NCBI GenBank assembly: GCA_947462335.1
Contig: OX381721.1
Location: 3,906,001-3,970,000 of the forward strand
Reading direction: 5' to 3'
Origin: Harmothoe impar
Lineage: Eukaryota > Annelida > Polychaeta > Phyllodocida > Polynoidae
Length of the DNA stretch: 64,000 nucleotides
A program made the position numbers and the translations under genes. A model generated the notes under the pieces. It searched no databases, was not told where the DNA came from, and worked only from the letters and a program-made list of their open reading frames with translations. Shown in pieces: positions 41,109 to 64,000 of the stretch. Every line of letters begins with the position of its first letter. Within the stretch, counting starts at the first letter, position 1.

Positions 41109-41183
<75 letters not shown>

Positions 41184-43696: not shown

Positions 43697-43998
43697 TGGC
43701 CTTTAGTCAGTTATTACCTGATTTATGAAGGATCATGCCATGACAGAAAAGACAAAAAGGATAAAGGTTCTTTCAGAGCGTGTCACAAATTCATGGGCCT
43801 TTTTTCTGTAGGGTTTATAGTGGGCATTTTATCTTAAGACTGACCAATCTGTTCTGAAAGCGCCTCCAGGGGCCCATTTATCAATGGGAAAAGATCGCAT
43901 CATAAGCAAAACATTAATATCTGGTAAAATCGTACAGAGCAAATTGTCCAAGGCATGGCTTTCGTCCAGAGCTTTCGTCCAGAGCTAGCTTTCGTCCA

Positions 43999-44110
43999 GA
44001 GAGAGGGGGAGGCAGGGAGGTAGGCAGGGAGGCAGGGAGGCAGGGAGGCAGGGAGGGAGGCAGGGAGGCAGGGAAGCAGGCAGGGAGGCAGGGAGGCAAA
44101 GAGGCAGGCA
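43999..44110. repeat. (GGGAGGCA)n microsatellite
   Basis: An imperfect GGGAGGCA/GGCAGGGA run. The reverse strand gives Ser/Pro/Leu-rich ORFs that are repeat artefacts. Confidence 0.85.
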
Positions 44111-46699
44111 CACTTAAAACCCAGGCCCATATGAAGGTACTCACTACAGAGGACTTAGGGTAATCATGTCCTTAGGTGATCAGATTAATAAGGAAAGGTG
44201 ATCATTTTAAGGACATTATTTTGCCACTAGAGGGACCTACTATACAACAATGTAAGATATAGCCCCTGCTCCATGTGATCTATCGATTAAACCCTATAGT
44301 AATATTGGCCATACATGTTAACAAGTTGGAGGATATATGAAGACAATTATCACAGTTTAAAATCAAGTGATTTGATTGAAAATTAGGTAAGAACTTTCCA
44401 AACTATAAATATCTATACGCAAAGACACCATTTATGTGTCTGAAACCAATGTTCGAAGTGTGAAGATACAGCCATCAGTTATACACATCTGTTGTACATG
44501 GCTTTTTATGAGGACTGAAACATACTCTTAAAAAAGGCCAGATGATTTAAGTTGATGATCGAGACGGGGTTAATAATAATAGTACGAGAAAGAATTGAAA
44601 AGTAAAGGCAGTCATCAAGTCATCAAGTCATTGAGTACCCAGGGTCTTCCCATTGACAACCTAGCATGCTCTACAATTGGGTCGAAAGGGTGATCATATT
44701 GATGACCTGGGTCCTCACTCGTGATCACTTTAAAGATCATCGGGGTACTCCCCCACTTCCCAATCAAAATAATCACCCAAAAGTCCTCACTAGTGAGTAC
44801 TTATTTTAACATAGGGTTTTCAGTGCAGGGATGATCATTAGATAGCCATTTATACCTGTACGATTCAGATATATGTAGGGGGCTGCATGAATCGTTCACT
44901 TCTATATGTAAGTGTTCCATGAATCGTTCACTGCTTTACTTAAGCAATATTAAGCAAAATGAATCGTTCAAACTTGAGAAATGGGCCCCTGAGCATAACT
45001 TATACATAGAAATGTCTTCTATTTCATCATAATGATTACCTAAGAAAGGCATATTCCGTATTTAAATCTTTAACTAGCATATGCCACCTAATCTCAAATT
45101 CTATAGATTTAGTAATTTGTGGGATCTGCTGTGATTTTTAAGATCATGTAGGTTATGACTATACTCTCGTAACATGCATCATTGCACACGGCCATAATGG
45201 GAATGGTTGAACTTAGGCGGCTGAAGCTAATGATGTCAGAATGTTGACAAACAGGTTGTACGTCTATACATTTATGCAAATCCATCGATGTTTATGAATT
45301 AAGCAATCAGCTGCATACTTAAATAAACCCAGATGTTATGACATGAAATAACATAATATTCTAGAATTATCCTTATCCAAAAGGGAGATGAAATATACTG
45401 ACTGAATATAGTTATTCTATTATGCTTTTAATGTTTCCAAACAGGCAAATTTTATAGAACTTTGCATTTGCCCGGTTCAGGTATAGCTCTTAGTTTATGA
45501 TTAGGTATTGTGTAACATATACCTTCTAAATATTGAGAAATGAGATTTGAAGAAAAGGCTATGCCCAATTGCGCTACACTGTATCTTTTTATTCCTCCTA
45601 TCATGGCACTAAGTTTAAGAATTTAGGGTTCTAGGGCCATAACGGTGGGTGTTATTTGTAGTAGGCCACGCTTGTGCATCTTACACCTAGAGTACCGCCA
45701 CCTGGTGCATCTGAAAGGCACTATTAGCCTTGACAAGAAGAGCTCCTCGTGCAAGCTGGGCTGGTAAAGGCACCACTTTCGGACGCTCCTGGACAATGAA
45801 GGGGTGATCACTTCTGCCTGTTGAAATAGACACCTTTGAAAGATGTAATTTCTAACCCCATTAGACATATTATCTTTAAGGTTATATTCCTGATAAGATT
45901 GCTATAAATTCTCTCATATAAGTATGAATAAATCTGCGTCTAAAATCTTGATTTCAAAAGATTAAACTAGCCTAAAGTCGGACACTTCATGCCGGGGCAT
46001 CTGGGGCTGTTTCACAAGGGGGGAATACAATCAATTGTAGAATGAGTGTTTCTATGGGAGGATTTAATTGTATATAACTAGTGAGAGCAACATTTCGTTG
46101 TATCAATTGTATGCTGCTTATTAAAAGCGTTTAACAAAAGTCAACAACCAAGATGTTAAGTTGGGGTCTCTGGCCTACAATAGAGATACAACTAATGTAT
46201 AAGTGTTTCACAATGCATATTAGCATGGAGCTCATACCATGCCTGCTAATATTTTCCTCATAGATTTATTTCCATACTTTGCACGTAATATATGTGCCAT
46301 AATACACATAAGAATCCCTGAAAAAAGCTGTGCATTCAGGATGAAAATAAGCTGGTTATACACATTTAAACAAGGCTTGAATTAATTCTATTCTCATACA
46401 AGGGGAGAGTATCTAAGATTCATGCTACATGGTTATCACGATCGACATTACCAAATGTTAGTCCGTTGGTGCTTCACAAGCCGCATTAGTATCTACAATT
46501 GGAACAAAGTATACACCCATAGATACAATTGAATCTTGTGAAACATGTAGATAAGATAAACATTGGGTGATAGTAAGTTATATATAGAAAACATGTAAAA
46601 TTAATCAAGGAAGACGGAAAAGTGATGCTCTCCACATATGGAGGATATAAAGGATGGAGTGAAGGTCATGTTGTCGAGCTGTAGTTATGGGGCAGTCCG
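44111..46699. other. Long intergenic stretch; two CTCF-like sites
   Basis: CCACTAGAGGGACC (44224-44237) and TACCGCCACCTGGTGC (45693-45708) resemble the CTCF core. 'GTCATCAAGTCATCAAGTCATTGAGTAC' (parts) near 44610 is a short tandem repeat. No exon is supported. Confidence 0.4.
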
Positions 46700-46822
46700 G
46701 ATTAATTCATGTCACTAAACCCAATGTCTCATGTTGAATTTAAGAAATGACCCGTGTCACATGTCACTAGGATAGTCATGCTCCATGTTTAAGAAATGCC
46801 CATGTCACCATGTCGTTTTTAT
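46700..46822. repeat. ATGTC minisatellite, locus 3
   Basis: 'CATGTCACTA...TTTAAGAAATGACCC...CATGTCACTAGGA...TTTAAGAAATGCCCATGTC' matches the array at 15487-15670. From 46823 to 47422 nothing else is identified. Confidence 0.65.
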
Positions 46823-47422
46823 GATTAGATACTATTCATAAAGCCATATGCTACTACTAACCCGCCAATCATAGAAAAAAAGACATAAGAATTGAGGAAC
46901 AACAACTTTTATTTTGTATGATTGATTTATAGTGGCTGGTTTTACCTGGGCTGACCCTACTGAATCCACCCTGCATTGGGCATTGCGTTTGTTTGATTCC
47001 CATCATCCCCAAATAGCACTGACTAGCTTGATATGAGGCATATAGTTTGCTGCACATATGCATGGCACAAAGGTCGTTTTAGAGAAACTGGGACTGGACT
47101 GAAGTCTCAGACACCAATGCTAGTGCTATAGCACTAAGCTACTACCTCTCCTTGACATGATGCTATTTTGACATAACCTTTTGTGTGCAACTTTGTTATG
47201 CACATGAGCATTCCGTGTCACTACAAGACATAAGCCATCAAATTCAAATTCAAATGAAGCTACTGCTTTACAGTTTGTATGAAGTCATAGCTCTTATCAC
47301 TATTCGCGACCTTTGGTAAATACCTTTTGAAATTTAATCAATTTGTCAACTGTATATGTAGATTACATTAACGAATTAAACTTCATAGTGATATCAACTA
47401 TTATGTAGCTCTGTATCATTTC

Positions 47423-49647
47423 TCAATATTTTGTTTGTGGGAAACATAACGATTTCACAGAAACCATGGTTTTATCTAGTTTGCTCTTTGTAGCCTGATC
47501 CAAGTGGTTCATCCCACAGTTATTGGTATAAATCAGGCGTAGCAGATCAGCGCATGGTCCCGTTCTGAACTGCCTGCAAGATAAAATGACAGATTTTGCA
47601 TTAAAATGTGTTGACTTTCATTCAATTACCGTAAAACCTCGGTTATAAGGCAAATTTTATTTGGCATTTTTATTTGCCAAATTTTAAGGCCCAAACTTAC
47701 ATTCGGCTTATAGGCAATGTTCTAACAATGTAGGAACATAGTGAGAATAAACTTTTGTTATAAGCCAAATTTTTTACACCAAAACTCACATTCGGCTTAT
47801 AACCGAGGGCGGCTTATAACCAAGGTTTTACAGTACATTTCACCTCCCACCGGTTTCTTGAGAGAGCTTGCAGCATCAGTGGTTGGCCAGACAACATCAG
47901 AAAATAACCCAGTCTCAGCCGCGCCGACTCTATCTATAGTAGAGTCGGAGGGTGCTGGTTCACACGGCCGTGGGCGCATCGCGGCGCTATTACATGACCC
48001 TGTGCACAGGGCTGGGTCAGGCTGATCGAAATAGAACAGTAATCGATGTAGCATTTCAAAATTGGCCTATTACAGTGAACAATGAACACTGCCTCAACCT
48101 CTCTTCCTATGTACTCACGTAGTGAGTTGGTGCCATCGTGATTTCCCCAGGATTTTGAAGATCCGCTGGTTGTTGGTGATCTGACCATACAGTGGGTAGG
48201 CCACTTAAAAAATAAAATGGTTTCTCATCACCGCGCGCATCATAAAAATCCAGTTTTGGGGAAAACTTTTTTTATTTTGCCAATTTTTGATGAAAAAAAC
48301 TGATAAAAATTGACAAAAATTGTCATATTCGGTATCAAATGAAAGCTAATAATGCCAGCAATACAGTGGAATAGAGATAACTTACATTTTGTCCACTTTT
48401 AAAGATCATGTAATTCTTAACCAACAAAATGCGAATTTTGGTCTTGAAAAACGTAAATTATCCTATACATTTTAGCCCGCGAGTTAAAAAAAATAAAAAA
48501 ATTTAAAAGCCTCCCTCGTCAGATTTCTCATGATGAGAAACCACTTTTTTTTTGAGTGGCCTTAGGTATGAGCCTTACCAGACACTCTACTGAGCGTGCC
48601 ACCATTCAGAGTTGACTGGGTTCAAGACTGAAAATAACCTAGTGTGGCTTCTGCTGCCACCTGCTGGACAAAAGCTGAGGCATTTGAGGCGGATACACTT
48701 CTCTAGGTTAAATACCCATTAGGGACCTTTAGCAAACCCGACGTAGCTCATTAAACACAGACGTAGTAGTGCTAAAGGGATAGGCTACGTCTGCGTTTAA
48801 TGAGCTTTTACGTGGTCGCTAAAAGTCCCTAATAAACACAAACTGTACTCACCCGCAGAAGGCAGTCACCCAGTCACGGTAAGCTGAGATTCCCATGTTG
48901 GCACTGCGTACAGAACCATAGTGCTATTTAGTGTACACCCACATGAATGTTATCACAGCTTCATGGTAAACTTGATGCCTTTTCAAGTGAATTAAAACTA
49001 ATTTGTTATCTTTCTTACAAATTAGTGGAATGAACGCAGGCTGTTGACAGGAATTAGTGTACAGGATTTGATTGGGCAACTCCTGAGGGCAAGTTAGGGA
49101 AACAAGATTTTTTATACGAGTTTGCCCAGACTCTACTATTATAAAGTCGGGGCCTGAGACTGTGTGCTATAGAGCTACGTTCTATGTGGAGACGGGGTAC
49201 GTCCTGGTATAACGTCTGCTGTTCACTTTTCCGAAGCCTCAAGGAACTTCTCTATAGTGGGACAACTGTACGCTGAGCTCTGCAAATGATTCCAAATATA
49301 CCTTAAGTTCTTCTATTTGATAAAAGACATGCCTAATAATTAATAACCATATTGTAGATTGCCTTTGCACTGTTGTATGAAAACCATAAAATCTTGGTTT
49401 GGTATGAAAACCTTAAAATCCTGATTTGTAAGCTTAATGTGAGTTTGAAAATCGTCTCCCCTATCTACGCTTGATTATCAAAAACCTCGCCTATAAGTTA
49501 AATGGAGTTTTGAAGAGTAATATCTAGCTATTAACGATTTTAGCGAAATTTCCCCGAGAAGTTGACTTATAACTGATGTTTTACAGTGCTGTAACTTACC
49601 TGGTGGCACAGGGCTACAAGGAGGAATGCTGCCAGGATGACCTTCAT
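47423..49647 (-). CDS. Gene A: small secreted cysteine peptide, three coding exons
   Basis: Minus-strand coding exons are 49647-49600, 49279-49227 and 47573-47423 (stop TGA). The signal peptide is MKVILAAFLLVALCHQ, exactly filling the first coding exon (phase 0). The second exon ends in phase 2 at donor GTGAAC. Total 83 residues. The mature part has four Cys: SxC, CAD, NNCG and LCF. Acceptors are TTTGCAG and CTTGCAG. Relative to gene B, the second coding exon stops 51 bp earlier and loses two Cys codons, but the phase is kept; without that donor the frame would meet a TGA. It is likely an extracellular peptide; the role is unknown. I recognise no family. Confidence 0.7.
47627..47835. mobile_element. 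MITE with TACCGTAAAACC ends, copy 3 (intron of gene A)
   Basis: Ends TACCGTAAAACCTCGG and GGTTTTACAGTA; the core has 'CGGCTTATA' segments. It lies 54 bp upstream of the last coding exon of A, within the intron. Confidence 0.7.
47913..48199 (-). repeat. Dispersed repeat, inverted copy of 16623-16925 (intron of gene A)
   Basis: Reverse-complement match over about 290 bp. It starts CTCAGCCGCGCCGACTC and ends TGACCATACAGTGGGTAGG. Confidence 0.65.
48199..48561. mobile_element. PIF/Harbinger-like MITE (GGCCACTC family), copy 3 (intron of gene A)
   Basis: GGCCACTTAAAA...TGGTTTCTCATCACCG and TGATGAGAAACCA...GAGTGGCC. Right flank TTA, left flank GTA. Confidence 0.7.
48652..48667 (-). promoter_or_regulatory. 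CTCF-like motif in gene A intron
   Basis: The minus strand reads CCAGCAGGTGGCAGCA, a strong match to the CTCF core CCASYAGRKGGCRS. The same 16 bp recur in the equivalent intron of gene B (57606-57621). Confidence 0.5.
48719..48833. mobile_element. Short palindromic MITE (GGGACCTTTAGCAA family) in gene A intron
   Basis: TTAGGGACCTTTAGCAAACC...GTCGCTAAAAGTCCCTAA, a full copy matching 19018-19130. Confidence 0.7.
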
Positions 49648-50015
49648 GGTTGTAGTTTGGTGTATTAGGGCTGTGAGACCTGAAACTAATTCACAACATT
49701 TTATCAAATACACTAAGATAAATGCTCGAATATACATCGACAAATGACCAAGAGAATACAGTCTGTTGTCCACTCTTAGAAGCATGGAAACAAAGTGAGA
49801 AATGGTGTACACCAACTCTACTGAGTGGGACTTCCATTTATTAAACATAAAACAGTCTAGAGTTATTTTATATCAAGTCACATCCCATGGAAAACTGCCG
49901 TGTAGAATACAGTTACAAATAAGCATACGGTAGTAACTCTCCTATTCACTATGTTTTAAAATGAATCTGTTTAAAGAGTATACAATGAAATGCAATGTTA
50001 TGCTTCCATACACAC

Positions 50016-50103
50016 CTCTCCCTGTGGATGCAACCAGCTTGACCCCGTGGCCAATATATCATACAACAATAGGTCTGAGTCTCGACTAAGATCGTGCCTG
50101 GAG
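50016..50103 (-). other. Gene A 5' UTR exon
   Basis: It ends at a GAGAG|GTGTGTATGG donor (50016/50015), mirrored in gene B by GAGAG|GTATATATGG. The next exon begins at 49679 after TTAGTTTCAG and has 32 untranslated bases before the ATG. The 5' end is set by the TATA box at 50131-50136 and is approximate. Confidence 0.55.
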
Positions 50104-50130
50104 AGTGATGCAATTTGCACCAGCCAGCGG

Positions 50131-50136
50131 CTTATA
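50131..50136 (-). promoter_or_regulatory. TATA box of gene A
   Basis: TATAAG on the minus strand, about 30 bp before the expected start of the 5' UTR exon. The corresponding TATA of gene B is displaced (60922-60931). Confidence 0.55.
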
Positions 50137-50159
50137 TCATTCATTTAAAGAATAATGTC

Positions 50160-50890
50160 AATGCTGTTGGTCATAAGGAGTTCATTGATTATTCTTACTT
50201 AAAGTGACATAATCACCGAGCGTACCCCACTCACAACTCTAGTACTGTTCTAGTCTACTATGTGGTTAAGTGTGAGTGGTGAGAATGCCTCTTTGAGTGA
50301 GTGGTCATTATTTGACAATAAGAGAGGTAGATTTTAAAGTTGGGTGGGTCCTGAAACTATTCACACATTCAATGTTTTTAGATATCAAAATGGTCCAAGA
50401 GTTAAGACAGCGGTGTATACCTTTGATTGACTCACAGTCCACCCTCACCATGGCTGACCATGCCTCACATGATATCAGTATATATGTTACTGATAAGGTA
50501 TCATGTCACTATGTACCGACAGTATACAAAACCTCTTTATACTTGTATTGATTTTATGTCACTTGAGGTCCCATAAAGAGTCTGATACGAGTTCTATACA
50601 AAATAGATTCAGAACTGGTCATGATCTTGTTCAACTCCAACCATGACGTCTGTTATACTGTTTTAGCCATGGATTTATTGGACTGGATATGGTCGGTGTA
50701 TGCCTAGTTTTATCCCTTTCTGAATGACTACCTTACAAGAGGAAATGGCTACATCCACAGAAGTTTGAAGCCTGGATGGTTAGCATGGGCTAGAGGATAC
50801 TGCTGTAATGGAGTACAGCATGACTATGTAGAAGGTAGGTCTATACAATGGGGACCCTTGCATTGCTTAAGATGGTAGACAGGCTTTATT
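50160..50890. repeat. Block upstream of gene A paralogous to 38020-39545
   Basis: Same ordered blocks as listed for 38020-39545, at an estimated 60-65% similarity by eye. It fills the head-to-head space between genes A and E. The following 50891-51121 is AT-rich and featureless. Confidence 0.6.
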
Positions 50891-51121
50891 GACCGACTAT
50901 ATAGATTCTGTCTCGGAGAGCATTTTCTGTGATACATACATTTTTTTACCAATCCCCTTCCATATTCCGGAATTGAATTGGATCGGATTCTTTTTTTTTT
51001 TTGAATTACACATATATTTATTCATTAATTGATTTTCTATCTTAATATTTGAATAATAATAGTTTAGTATACTATATTCCTTTTCATCATAATGTATTAC
51101 ACTAGCAGATGTGGATATATC

Positions 51122-51227
51122 AAGTGGGCACACAATTCAGTTCAACATTGAGTCAACATTAAATCAACATTGAACCAGCATTGACAACCCCTAATCAATG
51201 TTGATTCAATGTTCTGTGCGCACTGGG
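51122..51227. mobile_element. Short palindromic MITE (AGTGGGCACA family), copy 1
   Basis: AGTGGGCACACAATTCAG and TTCTGTGCGCACTGGG ends with TCAACATTGA repeats between. An inverted copy is at 63179-63286. Confidence 0.7.
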
Positions 51228-51443
51228 TATATGTGTATAGATATCAAATTGAAAACTAATAGATTGGCCGTTATTCTATAAGTGCAGACGTAGGCCTACA
51301 TCCCATAGGTCGTGGTTCTTTTTGTAAGCAAAGTTTCTCATGAATACTGCATGTCTACCCCGTGTCTACCCGATGTCTACATATATACAAAACGTAGAAC
51401 TGTGAACATTCCATCCTATGTGCGGTGACGGGAGCCCCTCGTA

Positions 51444-51714
51444 CACAGAGAGAAGAAACAGCGTCAAAAGGGAGTCCAGGTTCCCTCCAGATGACTCCCC
51501 TGTTTAGGGGAGTCCAGGTCGCCTAAGGGAGCCAAGCTAAGGGAGTCACCTGGGGAAGTCATATGACCCAGAGAGCTATATGACTCCCCCAGGGGACTCC
51601 CTGAGGTCAGCCAGAAGGACACCTTGGCTCCCTTATGCGACCTGCTCCCCCCAAAGAGGGGAGTCATTCTGGAGGAAACCTGGACTCCCTTTCGACGCTA
51701 TTTCTTCTCTCTGT
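51444..51714. mobile_element. TA-targeted MITE (CACAGAGAG family), intact copy
   Basis: CACAGAGAGAAGAAACAGCG and CGCTATTTCTTCTCTCTGT ends; TA on each side. The palindromic body 'GACTCCCC/GGGGAGTC' matches 21020-21401 minus the nested insert. Confidence 0.75.
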
Positions 51715-51799
51715 ATGTATCCATACCCCTTATAAGGGGATCTCACCGTAACTAGGTCACAGGGACGCCTCTGACGTATGTCATGTGGAGATAAGGTCC

Positions 51800-51880
51800 T
51801 AGTCGCTCATTGGTTGGCTTATATCCAGTGGTTATAGAAATTGGCGGGACGGCATGGTTTGACCGTCGCCATTTTGGATA
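51800..51880 (+). promoter_or_regulatory. Promoter of gene E
   Basis: Inverted CCAAT (ATTGG, 51809-51813), TTGGCGGGA (51841-51849, E2F-like) and CGCCATTTT (51867-51875, YY1-like). TTGGCGGGA is also present before gene D. Confidence 0.45.
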
Positions 51881-51926
51881 ATGCTTGATCCAAATCTTGA
51901 AAAAGGAGACGAACTCAGTTTAAATC

Positions 51927-54900
51927 ATGTGCTTTGCTATCATCCAAGGTATGGCAATTGTTTATGCATGTGTATGGTTTCATTGTCTAACTATTATGAT
52001 ACATTAGATTCGTTAATGGTCCTTCTTGGTAGAATATTCGTTTGATAATATAGTCAATACAACTCTGTGTTGATTGTGATATTTTCTTTGCTTGAGTGCC
52101 GACGTTGTCTGTCCTGTCAAATGAATAGGCCTAATGTGGTATCTCAATAGAATTATACATGTTATACAGTGACAAAGGGCTCTGAAGTATAATTAAATAG
52201 TGCTTTAGTCGATCCCTCTGCTATAGATGTTTATTTCTATTCCGTGTTGTCGTTCCTTGTGACAGTTCATCATCTTGTAGTTGATATGGGTCAGTATTTT
52301 TGGAAATTGAAAATAGTTTTGCTTGATATATTAATCAAAAAGGACTTGTTATCATCATATGCTCGCAACATGACCATGCCATGTATAAACTGACATGTGA
52401 AAACTCTCACTGTTATAATGTGTTGTTTTTTTGAGTATTTTTGTGCCATCTGTTTCTAATTCTTCTTTTTTTCAAATACATTATTGTTTAAAATTGTGTA
52501 AATAGTCACATGTACATTTTCGTCATTGTATGTAACTGACTGATCATGAGGACATGGATTATTTTAATCCTATAACATTTGGTAAATTGAACAACTACAA
52601 AGGATAACTGTTGTTTATAATCACATTGTAAATTTATGGAAGACATTAAATATTTCTCAAACCTAAATTCAAATAATATGTCATAACAGCCTCATCCTGG
52701 GAGTAGGGTTCTAAAATGTCTGGGGAGCATCGGTCAAACGGATAACTATTTCCCCTATATATAAAACGTCATTATTAGGCCGCTGGTACCCACCACATTG
52801 AATCAGGCTTGAGGTGCTTGACAGGACCAGATGAACCAAAAGAGGCTAGATTAAAGTATGTACTTTTTTCAAAACTAATTCGATTTTTTTCTCAATTTTA
52901 CTCCCAATTTATATTTTGAGCCCTTTTTATGTGATAACCTACTCACTATAGAGATAATTCTTACAATTACACTGTATTTAAAGAAACAAAACATTAATAG
53001 GCCCTACAAATCATACTCTCGCATAGAGAACCTAGCAACAAGGGACAGAAAATCCCTCGAACCTCCACCATTTTTTCCTGGACTAAAAGGGCACTATAAT
53101 AACTAATCTATCAAACAATTGTGGTCAAATACACAGTAATTGCTCTTTAGATATTCCCCTATGAATATTATATTATAAACCATTCAAATATTGAAGATAA
53201 TCAAACCTAAACTTTTGAACCGGCCCCCTTCCGTAAGAATCTGTTAGCAAAGTGAGATCGTCATAGGGAGGCTAAGTCTCGCGATAAAATGTTGTCGTAA
53301 TTTTTTTGCCGATTCTAACTAAAAATACCCACGTCTAAGTTAGCCTAAAAAGGCCCCAGATCTGAAATTTTATAGCCCAACTCTCTATATTAGTGGAGAT
53401 ATAGGGGGGCGAAACTTTTCGCCTATCCTTCAGGCCTGCGGGCGATAATAGGGGGAGCCCGTAAGGGCCCGGAAGTTGGCGGTCACGTGACGAGACTTAG
53501 GCGCCCTATACAAGCGACACGGTTACCATGGCAAGGGGAAGGGAGATATAGGTCAGAGGAACGCTGGTCGGTGGCTCCGCCTTTTCCGCGCCCTCCCGTG
53601 TCATGCAGTGCAGTCGATCGGGGGAGGGGGGTACAGGATAGGCCTATAGACTTGGCTAACACCCAAAATCCCAGCCCCCGAAGGGGCTGGTTATCATTAA
53701 ATCAGTAGGGAACATTCACAAATGACGTCACCTATTTTGGGCCATTTTTTAAAGACCCCAGCGTCTGACACCTCGTGGACATGCACGACTAAATCCAACC
53801 CCTCCCCTATAGCCCGCTCTACTAAACTCAAAGACCTACCCAGCCGCTAGCAAGTGACATTATTTGTGAATGGTCCCTTAAATGGTTGTATTGGTTGTCC
53901 TGTTAGGGTAGACTGACCTAAAGGCAACCACGTACCATGAGATGACCACCTCAATTTTGTAGTCATTCATTCATGATAAGCTCTGTTTTTGTGTATCACA
54001 GTACACTTGAAGTGATACTTTTTCCAGAAAAGGACAAATAAGTACAATACCATACACAAATAACTACATGATTAAGGTGGACATCTCATGGTACGTGGTT
54101 ACCTTTAGGGAGTTTTCATTTATTAATTACAGGGGGGGTGGTGGGTTTGGGGGGGGCGTAAAAGTTTCCGACCCCTCGTGAGGGGGGGTTGTAAAAAATT
54201 CAGACCCCTCTTGAGGGGGTGGCCTAAAAATTTAAAAAAAATTTAAAAAAAGCCCGCGCATTACTAAAGTTCAAAGGGGGGGGGGCGAAAAATTTTCGGC
54301 GCCTTCGGTGAGGGGGGGCGCAAAACGTTCCAGGCGCTCTCGAGGGGGGGCCGGAAAAAAATTTCGCCCCTCCGCGTGAAATCTCACCACCCCCCCCCCT
54401 GTAATTAATAAATGAACACTCCCTTAGGTCAGTCTACCCTATAGTAGTATTTAATGTTACCTTTCAGGAGCACTGAGGCGCCTCTGGTGTCACCTCGTCC
54501 CCAACATCCCAAATACAACACTACAGGAGGCCAGGTCTGCAGGACTGGAAGATGGTTAGTACGATCGTAATGAGATTCTTTCCCTTCAACCATCTTTTGG
54601 CATGCTACCTTCAAATGAAGGAGTGAGACACTACCAATATCACGTGCTAGCTAAGGGTGTTTTGAATAGGAGTGAGACACCAATATCAACTATAGCTAAG
54701 GGTGCCTTGAATAGGAGTGAGACGCTACCAATATCAACTATAGCTAAGGGTGCCTTGAATAGGGGTGAGACACCAATATCAACTATAGCTAAGGGTGCCT
54801 TGAATAGGAGTGAGACGCTACCAATATCAACTATAGCTAAGGGTGCCTTGAATAGGGGTGAGACGCTACCAATATCAACTATAGCTAAGGGTGCCTTGAA

Positions 54901-55401
54901 TAGGGGTGAGACGCTACCAATATCAACTATAGCTAAGGGTGCCTTGAATAGGGGTGAGACGCTACCAATATCAACTATAGCTAAGGGTGCCTTGAATAGG
55001 GGTGAGACGCTACCAATATCAACTATAGCTAAGGGTGCCTTGAATAGGGGTGAGACGCTACCAATATCAACTATAGCTAAGGGTGCCTTGAATAGGGGTG
55101 AGACGCTACCAATATCAACTAGCTACTGTTTAAATTCATATGACTTCTGTTAATTATAAAGAGTTAGTGAACATTCACATGTCGATGTATCTATAGATGC
55201 TCCATGAAATAATCGGAAATTGGGGATGGGAATTAATGGACAGCTTGCTTACATTGTGTAGATCTGACCCTGAAAGTGAAAATCATGAAATGAAAACGTA
55301 TTAACTCAAACCACGGGTGTGTTTCAGAATGCGTTGCTATAGTTACCAAACTGCTGACAGGGGATGAAGCCTTACGGGGCCTGAAGGAACAACTTGAGTG
55401 A
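51927..55401 (+). CDS. Gene E: paralogue of gene D, three coding exons
   Basis: Exons are 51927-51948, 54468-54554 and 55361-55401 (stop TGA; donor GTGAGT after 55416). Intron phases 1 and 1 match gene D. The 49-residue product begins MCFAIIQ, much shorter than the hydrophobic start of D; an in-frame stop lies just upstream of the ATG, so there is no longer N-terminus. Exon 2 shares L, PN, PNT, L, EA, S, G and E positions with D (about 12 of 27). Exon 3 shares DE and L-x-E. Intron 2 contains nested MITEs and a minisatellite, intron 3 a pyrimidine minisatellite. It may be a decaying or re-targeted duplicate. Function unknown. Confidence 0.55.
51949..53707 (+). other. Intron 1 of gene E, first part; GC-rich patch
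   Basis: Mostly AT-rich. From about 53440 to 53650 the sequence is GC- and CpG-rich with GGCGGTCACGTGAC (ETS/E-box-like surroundings). This could be another promoter, but no exon could be placed after it. Confidence 0.35.
53708..53877. mobile_element. Foldback MITE (GGGAACATTCACAAAT)
   Basis: GGGAACATTCACAAATGACGT and GACATTATTTGTGAATGGTCCC ends; flanks GTA and TTA. Similar end type to the element at 54108. Confidence 0.6.
53906..54439. mobile_element. Foldback (GGGTAGACTGACCT...) interrupted by a second MITE
   Basis: The left arm GGGTAGACTGACCTAAAGGC...ATGAGATG (53906-53953) is the reverse complement of a right arm split into 54075-54107 and 54427-54439. The split is caused by the element 54108-54423. 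The right end lies only about 28 bp before the acceptor of gene E exon 2. Confidence 0.8.
54108..54423. mobile_element. PIF/Harbinger-like MITE with TTA duplication, nested
   Basis: Termini GGGAGTTTTCATTTATTAAT and ATTAATAAATGAACACTCCC are flanked by TTA at 54105-54107 and 54424-54426. Removing the element and one TTA rejoins the right arm of the host foldback exactly as predicted from its left arm. G-rich core, related to 14615-14850. Confidence 0.85.
54646..55122 (+). repeat. 45/48-bp minisatellite, ~10 units, in intron 2 of gene E
   Basis: Unit GCTAAGGGTGCCTTGAATAG...ACTATA, with 48-bp and 45-bp variants differing by one codon's worth. All units stay in frame and give a 16-residue repeat (GALNRGETLPISTIAK). 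The last six are nearly identical, so expansion is recent. It is placed in an intron and not counted as a gene. Confidence 0.85.
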
Positions 55402-55440
55402 GCCCTGTCTAATGATGTGAGTTGTATATACTGTATTACT

Positions 55441-55815
55441 CTCCGTGTCCCTCCTGTCCATCTTTCTCCCCTTCTGTCCGTCTCTGTCCCCTCCTGTCAG
55501 TCTCTGTCTCCTCCTGTCCGTCTCTGTCTCCTCCTGTCAGTCTCTGTCTCCTCCTGTCAGTCTCTGTCTCCTCCTGTCAGTCTCTGTCTCCTCCTGTCCG
55601 TCTGTCTCCTCCTGTCCGTCTCTGTCCCCTCCTGTCAGTCTCTGTCTCCTCTTGTCCGTCTGTCTCCTCCTGTCAGTCTCTGTCTCCTCCTGTCCGTCTC
55701 TGTCTCCTCCTGTCAGTCTGTCTCCTCCTGTCAGTCTCTGTCTCCTCCTGTCCGTCTCTGTCTCCTCCTGTCCGTCTCTGCTTGTTTCTGTCTGTCTCTG
55801 TCCCCTCCTGTCTTC
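55441..55815 (+). repeat. TCTGTCTCCTCCTGTCAG-type minisatellite in intron 3 of gene E
   Basis: About 20-bp pyrimidine units. All six frames are open, so the Leu/Ser/Val-rich ORFs are artefacts. Directly follows the exon 3 donor, as does the shorter tract in gene D. Confidence 0.85.
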
Positions 55816-56220
55816 ACCATATGGACAAAACATGTCATACAGAGTCTATTGTTCGATATTGGAATTATGGCCACAATTCTGTTGTCTTAAAAGTTGGTTG
55901 CCAAATGTATTAATATCAAAGTTGATAATTGGAACCCAAAAATTAATTTTCCGGAAAATGGGTCAAATATTTCCCGTTATATCTATTCCATTTCCCCATA
56001 TTCCCTACCATTTTGCTCAAATTTGATATACACTGTAAATACCATGGTAAATTATGCCCCATTGGACCTACTCTCTGAACAATTACTGCCGATAGATACC
56101 ATTTAAATGTCCCATTAATGATATTCTTTCACGGTATTTGGAACATCTTTATGGGGAATTCAGAATTTTGTAAAAATCGGATATCCCCACTTTAATGGCT
56201 GATTTCTTGTTACAGGTTAG

Positions 56221-56300
56221 AAAGACAGCCAACCAGAAACACTGCCACATGGATTCTCCTCAGTCTATCAGCCACTGCCTTCCCCAACATAAACACCCAA
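56221..56300 (+). other. Gene E 3' UTR exon (homologous to 42957-43060)
   Basis: An acceptor in the region TTACAG/GTTAG precedes AAGACAGCCAACCAGAAACA, shared with the D locus. Downstream of the stop codon. The 3' end is not defined. From 56301 to 56900 nothing else is supported. Confidence 0.45.
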
Positions 56301-56901
56301 CATAAACATAAATATCATCATTGAAGATGCATACAGGAGTATATTTTAACTGGATACCAAACTCAATGACAAGAACTAGAGAGGCACGCTGTACAGTCAC
56401 TCTCAAACAAAATGTCATTTAAAGACCAATTTAAAAATTCTCTTTTAAAACTCATTACATCGACAACATTGTATGATTTAATTTGATACCAAATATGCCT
56501 GTTTTAGCTGTAAATATCTAATCGAAAATGGTAAGGGGCCTTATTTGATCTCCCCATGAAGCGAGGTCATTTAGTCGTATCAAAAAAGATGCTATTCTTA
56601 ATAAAGTCATGATATTTGTCCATTATCGTAGCGTCATCCTCACAAATCCCTCTGTGTGTGCATGATAACTAATAATTAATAGACTTATACCACAGCGGGC
56701 ACGAGAACAAAGCATTTCACACCTCTTGTATAGGCCTACTGCATATAGCTGGTGGTATAAAGTAGTAATAGGCCTAGTACCAATCTGTAGGGGTATAAGG
56801 CTCCTTCACTGTATTTCGCGTACAGATTGGTACACGTCCTATAATTACTACATAAACACAGGCTTTGCGTAGGTTCACTAGGGTAGCCGGCACTAGTAGA
56901 G

Positions 56902-57020
56902 TATCGCCACCTGGTGGATCTGAAGGGAGGGAGGGAGGGAGGGAGGGAGGGAGGAAGGGAGGGAGGAAGGAAGGAAGGGAGGGAAGGAGGGAGGGGGGAG
57001 GGAGGGACGGAGGAGGGAGG
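56902..57020. repeat. CTCF-like site followed by (GGGA)n microsatellite
   Basis: TATCGCCACCTGGTGG at 56902-56917 (CTCF-like on minus strand) precedes GGGAGGGAAGGA repeats from about 56926 to 57018. Confidence 0.65.
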
Positions 57021-57086
57021 GCCAGAACCAAACACTCGGTTCTTGCTTGTAAAGATAATAAACATAACTAAGTTTAGTTTTGACTT

Positions 57087-57092
57087 TTTATT
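57087..57092 (-). terminator. Polyadenylation signal of gene B
   Basis: AATAAA on the minus strand about 41 nt beyond the TAA stop of gene B. Confidence 0.55.
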
Positions 57093-57132
57093 TTTTTATA
57101 TGTACAATATAGACCATATAATTGCTGTTGCT

Positions 57133-59818
57133 TTAGAAACACATAGATTTGACAGAACTCATGGTTCCCTCAAGTTGGCTGTACACTGCATCATTGCCGT
57201 AGTTCCGACCACAGTTATTTGCATAAATCTGACTCAGGTCGGCGCACGCTCCTGTTCTGAACGCCCTGCAATATAGAAGAAACATATTTTTGTGTTAAGA
57301 CATTTGTTCTCACTCATGTGAATTTTACCTCTCATTGATATCTTTAAAATCACTTGTGGTATTTAATGTTAACCATGTAAGTATGGAGAAACGTGGTATA
57401 ACATTAACATCACTGCACCAAACTCACTGATGGTGAGGTTGGACACAACAGGGGATCAGAAGAGACTATATTGATAGAAACATTGACAAAGGGCGGTGAC
57501 TCAGAGTATATCATGGTTTTAGGTCACATTCAAATATTTGAAGGTTTACCACTGCGCCCTCAGTGGGCAGTCAGAGAACTGCAGCCAATAACCTTGTGTG
57601 GCTCGTGCTGCCACCTGCTGGGCCTGGTGCCTGATAATAGTTAAGGCATTTGCCACCAGGCTGTGCAGGGGAGGCTGGATAATAGTTCTGAAAGCCTGAG
57701 TTACATCTTTAACTATTACGCCCTATTCACCACAAAAGGAGTAACATGAATGGGGCTACCCTATTCCTTGTACAACACAACATGTTCCTACCTGCACATG
57801 GCAGCCATGGAGGTGCTGGCAGCGTCCATGCCCTCTGCACACTCTATCACCTCCTCATAGAACGTCATCACAGCAGGACAACTGTAGGCTGAGCTCTGAA
57901 ACACACACAACATAGAACAGCATCACAGCAGGACAACTGTAGGCTGAGCTCTGAAACACACGTAACATAGAACAGCATCACAGCAGGACAACTGTAGGCT
58001 GAGCTCTGAAACACACATAACATAGAACAGCATCACAGCAGGACAACTGTAGGCTGAGCTCTGAAACACACGTAACATAGAACACCATCACATCAACTGT
58101 ACGCTGAGCTCTGAAACACACATAACATAGAACGTCATCGCAGCAGGACAACTGTAGGCTGAACTCTGAAACACACATAACATAGAACGTCATTGCACCA
58201 GGACAACTGTAGGCTGAGCTCTGAAACACACATAACATAGAACACCATCACAAAAGGACAACTGTACGCTGAGCTCTGAAACACACATAACATAGAACAC
58301 CATCACAAAAGGACAACTGTAGGCTGAGCTCTGAAACACACGTAACATAGAACATCATCACACCAGGACAACTGTAGGCTGAGCTCTGAAACACACACAA
58401 CATAGAACATCATCACAGCAGGACAACTGTACGCTGAGCTCTAACCACACGTAACATAGAACATCATCACAGCTGGACAACTGTAGGCTGAGCTCTGAAA
58501 CACACGTAACATAGAACAGCATCACAGCAGGACAACTGTAGGCTGAGCTCTGAAACACACGTAACATAGAACAGCATCACAGCAGGACAACTGTAGGCTG
58601 AGCTCTGAAACACGTAACATAGAACACCATCACACCAGGACAACTGTACGCTGTGCTCTGAAACACACACAACATAGAACATCATCACAGCAGGACAACT
58701 GTACGCTGAGCTCTGAAACACACGTAACATAGAACATCATCACAGCAGGACAACTGTACGCTGAGCTCTGAAACACACGTAACATAGAACATCATCACAG
58801 CTGGACAACTGTAGGCTGAGCTCTGAAACACACGTAACATAGAACATCATCACAGCAGGACAACTGTACGCTGAGCTCTGAAACACACACAACATAGAAC
58901 GTCACTACAGCAGGACAACTGTAGGCTGAGCTCTGAAACACACATAACATAGAACATCATCACAACAGGACAACTGTACGCTGAGCTCTGAAAAACACGT
59001 AACATAGAACATCATCACAACAGGACAACTGTAGACTGAGCTCTGAAACACACGTAACATAGAACATCATCACAGCAAGACAACTGTAGGCTGAGCTCTG
59101 AAACACACGTAACATAGAACGTTATCACAGCAGGACAACTGTAGGCTGAGCTCTGAAACACACGTAACATAGAACATCATCACAGCAGGACAACTGTAGG
59201 CTGAGCTCTGAAACACACACAACATAGAACGTCATCACAGCAGGACAACTGTACGCTGAGCTCTGCAAATAAATTCAGATTTACCATGAACTCCAGCATA
59301 TATATCCCAGAGGTTGTATATTGTACAGAATCAGCTTTGATATGATAAGTCATGCAATTAATATGAGGATGGTTATTACTGCATGTACCATAAAACCACT
59401 CTGATAAGCCGACCTCCCTTATAAGCCGACCCCCCAGTTTGAGGGAATTCTATAAGTCGAATTCTGGGTCATTTAAAGAGCTATAAACTACAATGTAATG
59501 GATAAAATACCTCCCTTATAAGCCGACCCCCCACTTTCAGGATATGCTATAAGCCGAATCAGGCCAAAAATCCCATAAAAGGGTCAGCTTATCAGAAAGG
59601 TTTTACGGTATTAATGTCCCAAAAATCATATCCTGAAAGCAACTATTGCTGTCACAATGTACCAACTCATGCACACTGACTTGTATCATGCCAACCCTTC
59701 GGGAGTATAGCATGATACAACTGTGTTAAACAATTGGCTTATAACTGACTTTTACTGTGCTGTAACTTACCTGGTGGCACAGGGCTACAAGGAGGAATGC
59801 TGCCAGGATGACCTTCAT
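57133..59818 (-). CDS. Gene B: small secreted cysteine peptide, three coding exons, with expanded intron
   Basis: Minus-strand coding exons are 59818-59771, 57895-57792 and 57265-57133 (stop TAA). The signal peptide MKVILAAFLLVALCHQ is identical to gene A. Intron phases are 0 and 2. Total 94 residues. The mature part has six Cys: SCPA, ECAE, AMC, ACAD, NNCG and MCF; four of these are shared with A. Exon 4 is about 56% identical to that of A at protein level (FRTG-x-CADL, NNCG, SVKS-x-CF). All splice sites conform (CAG|GTAAGT, TTTCAG, CAG|GTAGGA, TTGCAG). The first intron carries about 25 copies of its own 3' splice site (see 57900-59275). It probably encodes an extracellular disulphide-bonded peptide; the family is unknown. 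Confidence 0.75.
57606..57621 (-). promoter_or_regulatory. CTCF-like motif in gene B intron
   Basis: The minus strand reads CCAGCAGGTGGCAGCA, identical to the site in the same intron of gene A although the surrounding intron has diverged. Confidence 0.5.
57900..59275 (-). repeat. ~25 tandem copies of a 55-bp unit containing a splice acceptor and exon start
   Basis: Minus-strand unit: TGTGTTTCAG, then AGCTCAGCCTACAGTTGTCC, then TGCTGTGATGATGTTCTATGT. It is the 3' splice site plus the first ~40 bp of gene B exon 3, repeated. Only the last copy (57895) runs on into the complete exon. The copy furthest upstream (about 59258) has the TTTGCAG acceptor context seen in gene A. The unit is 1 mod 3, so read-through changes frame each time. 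Most units differ by 1-4 bases. Confidence 0.9.
59386..59610. mobile_element. MITE with TACCRTAAAACC ends, copy 4 (intron of gene B)
   Basis: TACCATAAAACCACTCTG and AAAGGTTTTACGGTA ends; 'CTTATAAGCCGACCCCCC' segments in the core. Gene A has a degenerate relative in the same intron near 49355-49590. Confidence 0.7.
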
Positions 59819-60213
59819 GGTTGTAGTTTGGTGTATTAGGGCTGTGAGACCTGAAAATAATTCAGAACATAGGAATAAATACACTGAAATATATATGCTT
59901 GACTACATAGAAAAATGACCAAAAGGGAGAGAGTCTGTGTACATCATTCTCCTTGTTGAAGCCAGGGAGTATGTCATAGGGCTGTAGTGTGATATGCCCA
60001 GGCTTTAATGAGTGGAATACAATGTACACCGACTCTACTGGATGGGTCTTTGCATTTATAACATGTAGAAATAGTCGCGAATAATTTTGATTCAATGAAG
60101 TCACATGCAATGGAACGCTGCTACATAGACTACAGTCACAAATAAACATACTACCTCTGTATTCACAATGTTCACCAGTACCATAAAATGTACCATTATG
60201 CTTCCATATATAC

Positions 60214-60305
60214 CTCTCCAATGGATGTAACAAGCTTTAGCTACCAGTGCCTATAATTCATACACCAATAGGTTTGAGTCTAGACCAAGATTGTGCCAGG
60301 AGAGT
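60214..60305 (-). other. Gene B 5' UTR exon
   Basis: It ends at GAGAG|GTATATATGG (60214/60213) and is homologous to the 5' UTR exon of gene A. The coding exon follows at 59850 after TATTTTCAG. The 5' end is uncertain because the A-like promoter is interrupted here. Confidence 0.5.
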
Positions 60306-60367
60306 GAACCACTCAGAGAGGGCTTCTACCTTGGGTATTTGTCTCAGAATGATCTGGTGAATGTGTA

Positions 60368-60475
60368 CACAGAGAGGAATGTGAGCGTCACTGCCACCAA
60401 AAGCACTCACATCTGCTGCCTGACTTTCAGCTGAGAGTGCTCATGGCAACAGTGATGCTCATATTGATCTCAGTG
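60368..60475. mobile_element. 108-bp TA-targeted MITE (CACAGAGAG family)
   Basis: CACAGAGAGGAATGTGAGCG and CTCATATTGATCTCAGTG are inverted ends; TA at 60366-60367 and 60476-60477. Inserted between the 5' UTR exon and the putative TATA of gene B. Confidence 0.7.
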
Positions 60476-60517
60476 TATACAGAGAGTATGGGAGAGAAAG
60501 ATGCTATACTTACTGTT

Positions 60518-60882
60518 GGTGCTGTGAGTGTTGTTGTTGCTGTTGGTGCTGTTGGTGCTGTGGGTGCTGTGGGTGCTGTTGTTGCTGTTGGTGCTGTTGG
60601 TGCTGTTGGTGCTGTGGGTGCTGTGGTTGCTGTTGGTGCTGTTGTTGTTGTTGTTGGTGCTGTTGGTGCTGTTGGTGCTGTTGTTGCTGTTGGTGCTGTT
60701 GTTGTTGTTGGTGCTGTTGTTGTTGTTGTTGGTGCTGTTGGTACTGTTGGTGCTGTTGGTGCTGTTGGTGCTGTTGTTGTTGTTGGTGCTGTTGTTGTTG
60801 TTGTTGGTGCTGTTGTTGCTGTTGTTGCTGTTGTTGCTGTTGTTGCTGTTGTTGCTGTTGTTGCTGTTGTTGCTGTGAGTGC
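60518..60882. repeat. (GTTGYTGCT/GTTGGTGCT)n trinucleotide array
   Basis: 365 bp of GTT, GCT and GGT triplets. The minus strand is a CAG/CAA/CAC run (Gln/His-rich frame) and the plus strand gives Leu/Val-rich frames. No start or splice context makes it a real protein. It could be in the 5' UTR of gene B. Confidence 0.85.
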
Positions 60883-60921
60883 AGGACTGGAGACAAGTGA
60901 TGCTCTACCCCGGTACTGGGG

Positions 60922-60931
60922 CCTTTATATA
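60922..60931 (-). promoter_or_regulatory. Putative displaced TATA box of gene B
   Basis: The minus strand reads TATATAAAGG. About 25 bp downstream is GCATCACTTGTCTCCAG, which resembles GCATCACTCTCCAG beside the TATA of gene A. The homologous 5' UTR sequence resumes only at about 60305, after the MITE and the trinucleotide array. Confidence 0.4.
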
Positions 60932-61519
60932 TACCTCTGTCTCTGAGATGACATGGGAACTGGACCTCATATTAGGGTTAAATTAGGGTTATCAGAACCC
61001 AATAGTGGCAGCCCCCAGTAGCGGGTCCTTATCCCATTATGGTGTAGCAGTAATGGCTACTGTTGGGTAACGCTGTCTGCGGGTCTTACAGCCGTGTTAT
61101 AGCTATTCAGAACTCATCAAGAGCTCTCCATGTGTCCTACCCAGTTGCTTTAAAAGTGGTTTTGTCTATTTATTTTCAAATGTACACTCCTGTTTAAACT
61201 CTGTTAGGGCCTAGGATTTTTCGTGTTTCTGGAGAATTCTTTCTAGTCCTCCTAGAAAAGCAAAATCATGTAAAATGTTGAAATTCTTTGATCGAAAAAT
61301 TAAAATATGTGTTTAGTCCCTGGCTACCATTTTAGGATTAGGTGTAGGGGGACCCTCAGAGGGTCACATAGATTGACTTGCAATTTACATCACTTACCCG
61401 CATGTCCATAGGGATCAACCCACTAGACCAAATAGCAGGCTGGCATAACCAGCAGCAATTAAGTATCATCCTAATGAGATGCAGCTGTCCATTAATGCTC
61501 CAAAGGCAGTATACCCCTT
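60932..61519. other. Intergenic without identified features
   Basis: No exon or repeat partner recognised. Confidence 0.4.
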
Positions 61520-61641
61520 ATTAGGCCCGTGTCCACTAGGATATGTCACATTATTTTGTCGCTGACCAACGTGTTTTTCGGTGACAAAATGGTTTTTTCG
61601 GTGACAAAACAGTGTTATATATTCTAATGGACACAGGCCTA
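61520..61641. mobile_element. Palindromic MITE (TAGGCCYGTGTCCA family)
   Basis: TTAGGCCCGTGTCCACTAGG and CTAATGGACACAGGCCTA are inverted ends around GTGACAAAA repeats. A fragment of the CATGCATCATG family follows at 61643-61680. Confidence 0.65.
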
Positions 61642-61680
61642 TTGACATGATGCATGAATACATCCCCGGTGAGTAACTGA

Positions 61681-63178
61681 AATTCTGTTTGTTTAAAGCT
61701 GTAGAAGGGCAGATCCCTGATATGTCGATTTATCAGGTAAAGGGCTCATTACTACCCTGTACTTCTTCTTCATCTCATCTCATCATTATCTATCTTACAT
61801 ACATATGAAATTCCTGTATTTTTTTCCATTTCTTTACATATAATTCTGGTGTTAAACATGTGGATGACATAGCATAATATTATAAGACCATCAAATATTG
61901 TTGTATAGGTAGGGGTGCTGGCGGCAGAAGGGCAATGCAGCCAAACCAGTTTTTGCGCTTAAGGAGAATTAGATCAAAAAAATATGTGGGGTCGGCATAA
62001 CCTGGGAAATTAATACTTTCAATTATTATTGAAAAAGCACTGAACTATGGTCATTTTTTTATGGATTTTGAAATATTACCTTTAAATAGATAGCATATGA
62101 TCAGTTTACAAAATAAAAGTCACAGATTTGATATTTTTTATTGTATTCTGGCAGTTTGAAAAAAGAACTAAGAAAATGGCCAAAACACTGAATTTCCCCC
62201 CAATACCAGTATTCTCACATATTTATGGTAGCAGCCTAAATAAATTGTCTCTTCATATGAAAATGTTTATTAAAATGTCAATTTCCATAGTCCCCAACCC
62301 TCAAGTCTTCTCTCTAGTCTACATTCTGATATAGGTTTTTGAAAAACTAGAATCTGAAATATAACTCCAAACACCTCCAATATTTAGTTAGTAAGGCGTC
62401 AGTCCGCTATTTGCCTGCCGGACTGATAGCTCATGGATTAGAGAGTGTAACACGAAGATGATATCTGTAATCTGGCTACATGGAGGCCGCTTATATCATT
62501 AAAAATATATTATATTTTTTCAAATCTTTTTGCCTTTCATAGTACTATGGCCAATAGGGACAGTATCCATAGGGTTGTTGTTTTTGTAGTTATAATAGAT
62601 CTTGAGGGATACAAGCATGGGTTTAACCTTTTTATAGATACTGTCGCAGTAAATAGTTGCCTCACTTCCATTTAGCAAAATTACGGACAGACTCAACCAG
62701 TGTAACACATCTACAGTACTGCCATCTGGTGGAGCTTATTGTCACTATTAGCCTTACTACTGATGCTGTGGTGAGATACATTGGTGTATCAGAGGGCACG
62801 TCCCTTAAAGGCCCAGTGCCCCTATATATAGGGCTGAGTACCTGTCCCGACTCCACTCCGACTGCCGCTGGAGGGGTAGGCCTACTGAGACCTGCGGGTT
62901 TAAAGGGTTGATGAAAGATTCACATTGTATAATGTAACCCTGATGAAGACTATATTAAGCCAAAACTATGGATTCTAACTAGATAAAGCCATCTCTTAAA
63001 CCAATGTATCTTTATTTACACAAACATTGATGAGCGTACAATACAATGGAAATCTGCTTATGACACCATGGATACGTCTTTGACGTTCTATGGCAGCCTG
63101 GCTTTCGTATTATGAGCTTCAAAAGAAAGGCCATATTCTAACATACTTTTGTATCTACCCATTCCAATATCCCTCTAT
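61681..63178. other. Intergenic; one CTCF-like site
   Basis: TACTGCCATCTGGTGG at 62717-62732 (minus strand CCACCAGATGGCAGTA) is a near-consensus CTCF core. Short ORFs only; no exon supported. Confidence 0.45.
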
Positions 63179-63286
63179 CCCAGTGGGCACAGATCATTGA
63201 ATCAACATTGATAAATGGTTGTCAATGTTGATTCAATGTTGATGCAACGTTGATTCAATGTTGAACTGAATTTTGTGCTCACTGGG
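63179..63286. mobile_element. Short palindromic MITE (AGTGGGCACA family), copy 2
   Basis: CCAGTGGGCACAGATCATTG and TTTTGTGCTCACTGGG ends with repeated ATTGATTCAATGTTGA. Matches 51122-51227 in reverse orientation. Confidence 0.7.
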
Positions 63287-63566
63287 ATGTTATAGAATGA
63301 GGGAATCCCTTAATTATGCATTTAACATTTTATGAATGCAATCTTAGAATAACCGGAACCGGAAATAGAAACTGTAAAGAGGTCACAGTTTTCACATGGA
63401 CATTGATCGAGTTGCAACATCAGAAAATCCCTACATAAAAACCAAATTGGCAGCGCTACCCACTAGGCGAATGTGCAGCCCACATGTGAATTATATATAA
63501 TTCAATATATATATTATGAAAATTTATAATATTAACACCATCTTTTTATTTGATAATTCAAGTTTA
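63287..63566. other. Intergenic without identified features
   Basis: AT-rich; nothing recognised. Confidence 0.4.
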
Positions 63567-63710
63567 TTTGTCAAAGATTATTCCATCAAAGTAGCTACGC
63601 TGAAACAGTTCACATGCATTCAAGCAACTATAAAACTAATAAAAACCTAAAGATAGATAATGGCACACTTCTGGGGGTTTGAGGCAATGTTAAGCTATAT
63701 TAATCAATAA
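63567..63710. repeat. Dispersed repeat, copy 2 (first copy at 10341-10490)
   Basis: ATTATTCCATCAAAGTAG...GCTGAAACAGTTCACATG matches the first copy in order and orientation. The remaining 63711-64000 holds nothing I can identify. Confidence 0.5.
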
Positions 63711-64000
63711 TATATTTTGAATAGTGAACCCTCTTTGGCAATACACAGAGCTGCTGACCAGGGAAACAACATAACGAACACATGGGTAACGAGATACTAA
63801 TATTGAAGTCAGAGACCTTTACTATTATAGTGAACACATTTATATTTCTGTTGGCGAGCTAGTTTACAATCTTCAATATTGTTTAGCAGATATTGTTTAG
63901 TACATAGACTTGATAGAATATTACTTATATGCTGAGGTTTGGGACACATGTATTTTTCATACATAGTTGCATTATACAAACGCAGCTATGTATTTGTGAG

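Follow-up and report, generated by a model that had tools for sequence, protein, structure and literature searches.

We find that genes A and B, which both lie on the minus strand, are probably two of 12 loci in a family of small secreted proteins, of which gene B represents an intact copy and whose intact copies experience ordinary purifying selection on their mature part. For the A/B/F group and locus E, the leader exon would be held nearly fixed at the nucleotide level by constraint, perhaps together with gene conversion, and in the B subfamily a segment over the border of intron 1 and exon 2 would have been amplified into a mirage-type minisatellite. The window, by which we mean the whole stretch of 64,000 nucleotides that was analysed, corresponds to C21:3906001-3970000, and the features discussed below are collected in Table 1.

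The longest block of identity between the two genes is exactly 100 nt long, which bears out the preliminary description of this DNA, where some 100 identical base pairs had been reported over the signal exon, its donor and part of the 5' UTR; the coordinates given there were right for A and off by one for B. The block is made up of 6 nt of a possible intron tail (TTTCAG), 32 nt of 5' UTR, 48 nt of coding sequence and 14 nt of intron, and its coding part encodes the signal peptide. Aligning the A and B flanks gave 439 matches over 634 ungapped columns, and the longest run of matches in 10,000 shuffles of the columns was 39. Upstream of the block, A is 71% identical to the corresponding flank of B (about 59857-60307), and the homology falls to random beyond about 50,110. 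Pieces of intron and 3' UTR (60-120 nt each, aligned) match at 43-48% only. Taken together, the flank and block alignments establish that the homology of A and B is real, and that the leader block stands out from it. In the last exon, 26 of 44 aligned residues are identical (59%, slightly above the 56% or so first reported), and the two proteins do have their last-exon cysteines in common, as had been proposed. The suggestion that both genes consist of four exons fared less well: gene B needs three coding exons, which are open over 94 aa, and the reading of gene A as four exons giving 100 aa relies on a doubtful exon 3 and a weak donor.

Table 1 Features of genes A and B (positions in the window) and family loci on contig C21 (Mb, grouped by hand)
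Feature	Position	Strand	Remark
Gene B exon 1, coding part, signal peptide MKVILAAFLLVALCHQ	59771..59818	-	5' UTR on to 59850; donor CAG/GTAAGT, 9/9 consensus
B side of 100-nt identical block	59757..59856	-	alignment
Gene B intron-1 array, 25 tandem units	57896..59262	-	22 units of 55 nt, others 53, 54, 50 nt
Gene B exon 2, 104 nt, via acceptor 26	57792..57895	-	donor CAG/GTAGGA, 7/9
Gene B last exon, stop included	57133..57265	-	homologous last exon in all 12 loci
Upstream flank of A homologous to B flank	49686..50110	-	282/397 ungapped columns
A side of 100-nt identical block	49586..49685	-	alignment
Gene A exon 1, coding part	49600..49647	-	5' UTR on to 49679
Gene A exon 2 remnant	49227..49279	-	TGA directly after; exon end and donor absent relative to A'
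Exon 3 of A in the preliminary description	48853..48903	-	51-nt frame between splice-like sites; in A and A' only
Gene A last exon, stop included	47423..47573	-	short C-terminal extension PQTKY
Locus C	3.680-3.686 Mb		
Locus G	3.6895 Mb		
Locus D	3.691-3.696 Mb		
Locus B'	3.701-3.703 Mb		
Locus A'	3.721-3.724 Mb		
Locus C'	3.869-3.873 Mb		
Locus F	3.886-3.888 Mb		
Locus D'	3.889-3.892 Mb		
Locus B''	3.897-3.898 Mb		
Locus A	3.953-3.956 Mb		
Locus B	3.963-3.966 Mb		
Locus E	11.605-11.607 Mb		

By searching the 1.51-Gb assembly with the B protein (threshold E 0.001 or better), we obtained 17 matched stretches, all on contig C21, which were grouped by hand into the 12 loci; 10 stretches were fetched, and exons were placed by tblastn. 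In 11 of the 12 loci we could assign all three of signal exon, exon 2 and last exon, with exon 2 incomplete in A, and locus G has the last exon alone. The assignment of exon 1 in C is weak (tblastn E 0.068), and its difference from C' there is far above that in the rest of the gene. Along C21, the block C, G/F, D, B'/B'' occurs twice, at 3.68-3.71 and 3.87-3.90 Mb, in the same order and orientation and about 190 kb apart. Counted by eye, six mature cysteines are found in 9 of the 11 protein models, in the frame C-x12-C-x10-14-C-x7-C-x10-C-x23-C-F, with a fourth gap of x8 in D'; A' has five mature cysteines by the same count, and A either four or five, according to the model chosen. An AlphaFold model of the last-exon pair consists of two helices at a pLDDT of 57.5, a low confidence at which it is not usable beyond a hint of helix. 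The mature chain is probably about 70-85 residues long, with six cysteines and mostly helical.

The possibility that this is an undescribed family of secreted peptides had been raised before, and our searches support it. The profile search then proposed found no known family: scanning the A and B proteins against Pfam gave no credible match, and neither did scanning 10 family members (A left out), where the one match to TBCC had an E of 0.086. Sequence searches of the PDB gave nothing credible, searches of 5.8 billion proteins, in a database that includes annotated marine animals, returned no homologue, and we found the leader sequence in none of the open-access papers in which it was looked for. 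The secreted six-cysteine family thus appears to be undescribed, and from its sequence features we would go no further on its role than a protein that acts outside the cell and is stabilised by disulphides.

The conservation of the leader reaches down to silent sites. Among A, A', B, B', B'' and F, none of the 12 synonymous sites in exon 1 differs in any of the 15 pairs, with pS at 0.04-0.45 in the rest of the gene. Comparing synonymous changes in exon 1 with those elsewhere, we counted 1/12 vs 39/53 between E and B (p 5e-5) and 2/12 vs 27/48 between C' and B (p 0.02). Between D and B the counts are 3/12 vs 24/50 (p 0.20, not significant), and special leader conservation was found neither for D' (5/12 vs 21/48 against B) nor between D and D' (2/12 vs 4/50); in C, the weakly assigned exon 1 has either diverged or been misassigned. 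Judged from these counts, silent-site conservation of the leader seems to be a property of the A/B/F group, E and C' and not of the D pair, so that the earlier notion of a conserved leader stands for the former, is not clear in D and does not apply to D'.

The mature part tells a different story from the fast-changing region that had been described. In the intact copies it does not evolve near or above the neutral rate, pN being well below pS (0.01 vs 0.15 for B-B', 0.01 vs 0.13 for B-B'', 0.01 vs 0.06 for B'-B'' and 0.09 vs 0.30 for B-F), and this comparison over further paralogues, which had been suggested as a check, revealed no hypervariable mature part; most models also keep all six cysteines. 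Exons 2 and 3 are 96-98% identical among B, B' and B'', vs 88-94% for intron 2. The pairs D-D' (pN 0.04, pS 0.08) and C-C' (0.01, 0.02) are too close to say much. The A lineage alone nears parity of pN and pS, with 0.31 and 0.43 between A' and B, and the 59% identity of A and B is accounted for by this one divergent, degenerating lineage (A/A').

Two other readings of this pattern have to be weighed. The identical leader might simply go back to recent gene conversion among A, B and close copies, an alternative already raised in the preliminary description, which we regard as possible without favouring it. It would explain why the 100-nt block extends into UTR and intron and by far exceeds any run in the shuffles, and it agrees with the near-exactness of the close copies, since the UTR and coding part of exon 1 are identical in A, A' and B, and B' and B'' are each only one UTR and one coding nucleotide off B. 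The D pair, lacking special leader conservation, also fits conversion within a subgroup better than constraint across the family. The coding exon is, however, kept where flanks differ: F matches the B leader at 48/48 coding nucleotides but at 24/32 in the UTR, and E, 7.6 Mb away, matches B at 44/48 coding nucleotides, with 13/32 in the UTR and 8/20 in the intron. That so remote a locus has kept its coding exon between diverged flanks argues that conversion is not the whole explanation, as do the silent-site counts for E and C'. We think that constraint at the nucleotide level is likelier than conversion by itself, and that conversion may have added to it in the close copies.

Conopeptides and amphibian skin peptides are secreted peptide families with conserved leaders, and the present family resembles them in that cysteine spacing is kept, the genes are clustered and, within the A/B/F group, the signal exon is more conserved than the rest. 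One could imagine a venom-like, antimicrobial or recognition family, the kinds to which the preliminary description pointed, in which the leader is conserved and positive selection makes the mature region hypervariable, and the identity of the A and B leader exons would suit it. So would the middle segment of A and B in the four-exon model, with pN 0.55 against pS 0.33; we discarded this contrast, which used A exon 3 rather than the end of exon 2 and was not significant (Fisher p 0.18). We consider such a family improbable, given that pN is well below pS in the intact copies. Charge, computed for A and B only, gives no net positive mature peptide for B, an antimicrobial trait, its mature part being acidic (-4.3 at pH 7, pI 4.3), and that of A in the four-exon model is weakly basic (+1.8). 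The present family further differs from the leader-conserved ones in the purifying selection on its mature part and in that no propeptide was seen, and no sequence relation to them was found. Ordinary purifying selection on the mature part thus remains our preferred reading.

Gene B carries a tandem array in its first intron, which was missed in the preliminary description although it lies inside the interval described there, and which TRF reports as 55 bp x 25.8 copies at 57856-59265. Each unit joins the first 40 nt of exon 2 to a 15-nt tail of a 3' splice site, such as TTACGTGTGTTTCAG, ending in CAG (TAG in one), and adjacent units show no clear excess of similarity over units far apart (permutation p 0.16, 22 units). 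The array thereby presents 25 decoy acceptors (59262, 59207 ... 57950) ahead of acceptor 26 at 57895, and all 26 end in AG. In models that join exon 1 to each acceptor in turn, the frame stays open as far as the last exon for acceptor 26 alone and runs into a premature stop for the other 25; going by the reading frame alone, B would splice to acceptor 26. The sister genes B' and B'' have seven acceptors (six units) and five acceptors (four units), respectively, with only the last productive in each, and F has a single acceptor and no array. The sequence leading up to the first acceptor of B, B' and B'' corresponds, by eye, to that in front of the single F acceptor, and in B it agrees with the sequence ahead of the A acceptor at 18/23 nt, compared with 13/23 for an internal acceptor. 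This resemblance to F and A marks the first acceptor as ancestral and the productive one as array-derived. Exon definition would pair the downstream donor with the nearest acceptor, so that the array would be passed over as part of the intron; splicing to one of the other acceptors would yield a truncated frame, expected to be degraded.

Gene A and its sister A' are 95-100% identical, segment by segment. Exon 2 of A' extends to a donor AG/GTATGG, and its last codons resemble, by eye, the end of B exon 2 with the cysteine replaced by serine. A lacks 4+34 nt that A' has kept, including the exon-2 donor, and its frame enters a TGA. Since A' retains the exon-2 end and donor that A has lost, we regard gene A as probably broken: it would be a pseudogene, or rescued only via weak splice sites, and it may be expressed through a cryptic donor. 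In the four-exon model, the exon-2 donor is a weak one with 6 of 9 consensus positions, and the 51-nt exon 3 is also found in A', with one amino-acid change, and in no other stretch searched. Between A and A', the UTR and exons 1, 2 and last differ at 2 of 284 nt, vs 60 of 1580 nt in introns 1 and 3 (Fisher p 0.004; not counted were 1 of 51 in exon 3 and 7 of 323 in intron 2), so the exon sequences were constrained for at least part of their history. In a tree, the A lineage sits on a long branch, with weak support within the B group. Intron 2 of A' (L012, about 2280-2900) carries an insertion of roughly 0.58 kb relative to A, MITE-like, with inverted ends and CGTCTTTGACCGG repeats; akin to the repeats in this insertion, CCGGTCAAAGACG-type repeats recur in L011, L015 and L016.

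Both observations invite other interpretations. The B array could be functional, its acceptors being chosen in a regulated or in a noisy fashion, or the units serving as 39-nt in-frame mini-exons encoding SSAYSCPAVMMFY. Several properties would fit: in 24 of the 25 units an open stretch of 13 codons precedes a GT, AG closes every one of the 26 acceptors, the best donors within units reach 5-6 of 9 consensus positions and so equal the A exon-2 donor, and the number of acceptors varies between sisters. We nevertheless hold a functional array to be unlikely. In the 22 units of 55 nt (the three of other length were dropped), the first, second and third codon positions show 10/15/12 changes (p 0.60), and the distinct unit variants number 11 non-synonymous to 4 synonymous, against 89 to 21 possible, which looks like no real excess of synonymous variants; on both counts the units look non-coding. 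In addition, the best-scoring donor-like site lies at nt 44 in 24 of the 25 units and would break the frame, and the upstream acceptors lead to stops. As for gene A, one could speculate that it gained an extra intron from a mirage array inside exon 2, in the manner of the intron gain proposed for amphioxus globins. B exon 2 shows local similarity to the last part of A intron 2 (shuffle p 0.01-0.04, post hoc), with 37-71 of 4744 control windows scoring equally high. Other forms of the test, however, gave p 0.13-0.60 (one 0.02), and the alignment to A' has the end of exon 2 in A lost, not split, which already refutes the simple form of this intron gain; we give what is left of the idea hardly any credence. 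Lag matches in A intron 2 showed nothing striking. In view of the alignment to A' we also rejected an extra intron in A splitting B exon 2, the sum of 53+51 = 104 nt being a coincidence. We thus retain the view of a skipped, non-coding array in B and of a degenerating gene A.

Other parts of the window were surveyed as well. A BEL/Pao-type retrotransposon lies at 24200-31916, with a long ORF at 24910-31200 and flanks (24200-24517 and 31599-31916) whose ORFs translate identically; in its pol, one part shares 97% identity with a metagenome protein. An ORF at 1386-2810 is integrase-like by eye, and a 1280-aa ORF at 3721-7563 is of unknown kind. Further tandem arrays are present at 54619-55121 (48 bp x 10.6, open on both strands), at 55446-55812 (20/58 bp) and, some 0.7 kb upstream of the first exon of gene B, at 60513-60876 (9 bp x 39). 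Six-frame Pfam scans of 8300-23290, 32500-47490 and 49700-64000 gave nothing at E 0.01; as a control, one frame with the BEL/Pao element was scanned and detected. Rfam and tRNA scans were empty.

The host is probably an annelid, judging by its mitochondrial genes; an amphioxus host, which the array by itself had suggested, was rejected. Contig C736 (15,367 bp) carries cox1 (Pfam PF00115) within the order, on one strand, cox1, cox2, cox3, nad6, cob, atp6, nad5, nad4L, nad4, a gap of rRNA size, nad1, nad3, nad2, where the genes other than cox1 were recognised by eye from ORFs, and atp8 and tRNAs were not identified. The available text of PMC2639372 describes four annelid changes: nad6/cob follow cox3, atp6 lies between cob and nad5, nad5 has traded places with nad4L/nad4, and nad3 sits between nad1 and nad2. 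C736 has all four. Its cox1 reads sensibly, by eye, with AAA as Lys, ATA as Met and AGA as Ser at apparently conserved sites. A second, divergent cox1 on contig C466 (L020) looks like that of a flatworm by eye and is probably from a parasite or contaminant in the assembly; it is unlikely that C21, which is 65 Mb long, is foreign.

In amphioxus, mirage minisatellites are known in the globins BflGb6 and BflGb9, in Adh3, in troponin C and in PGBD5; they are tandem repeats over an intron/exon boundary, with units that contain splice signals and with variable copy number, and, in the text available to us, are said not to disturb regular splicing (PMC3087553; PMC3902484). The B array is likewise a tandem repeat over an exon-intron boundary of a protein-coding gene (25 units, with 6 in B' and 4 in B''), its units keep their splice signals, as the 26/26 AG acceptors show, and its copy number differs, with 5, 7 and 26 acceptors in three sisters and 1 in F. 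There are also differences from the amphioxus cases as far as these sources describe them. Copy number changes here between paralogues that have an array-free sister, and in amphioxus between alleles; B has 25 units before the real exon, and haplotypes of BflGb6 have 3 and 6; and, unlike in the amphioxus mirages, the ancestral acceptor of B was apparently replaced by an array-derived one. Finally, cephalochordates are the only hosts in the available portions of PMC3087553 and PMC3902484, and the host here is the probable annelid. By its sequence, the B array thus has the structural features of a mirage, and its host does not fit a cephalochordate. Our literature searches, made in listings of open-access papers, turned up no report of mirage-type arrays in annelids.

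One may tentatively speculate, though we would rather doubt it than not, that mirages also arise in annelids and can move the functional acceptor to an array-derived site, and that their copy number (5, 7 or 26 acceptors) sets the share of transcripts that is mis-spliced and degraded, which would amount to an evolvable control of dosage. The cluster as a whole offers a place to ask why some signal exons are kept at silent sites. Within it, the B subfamily allows a direct measurement of how a large number of near-identical decoy acceptors affects the choice of splice site and the amount of mRNA, in three sister genes of different array length and an array-free sister, a set that the amphioxus examples, as described in those sources, do not offer.
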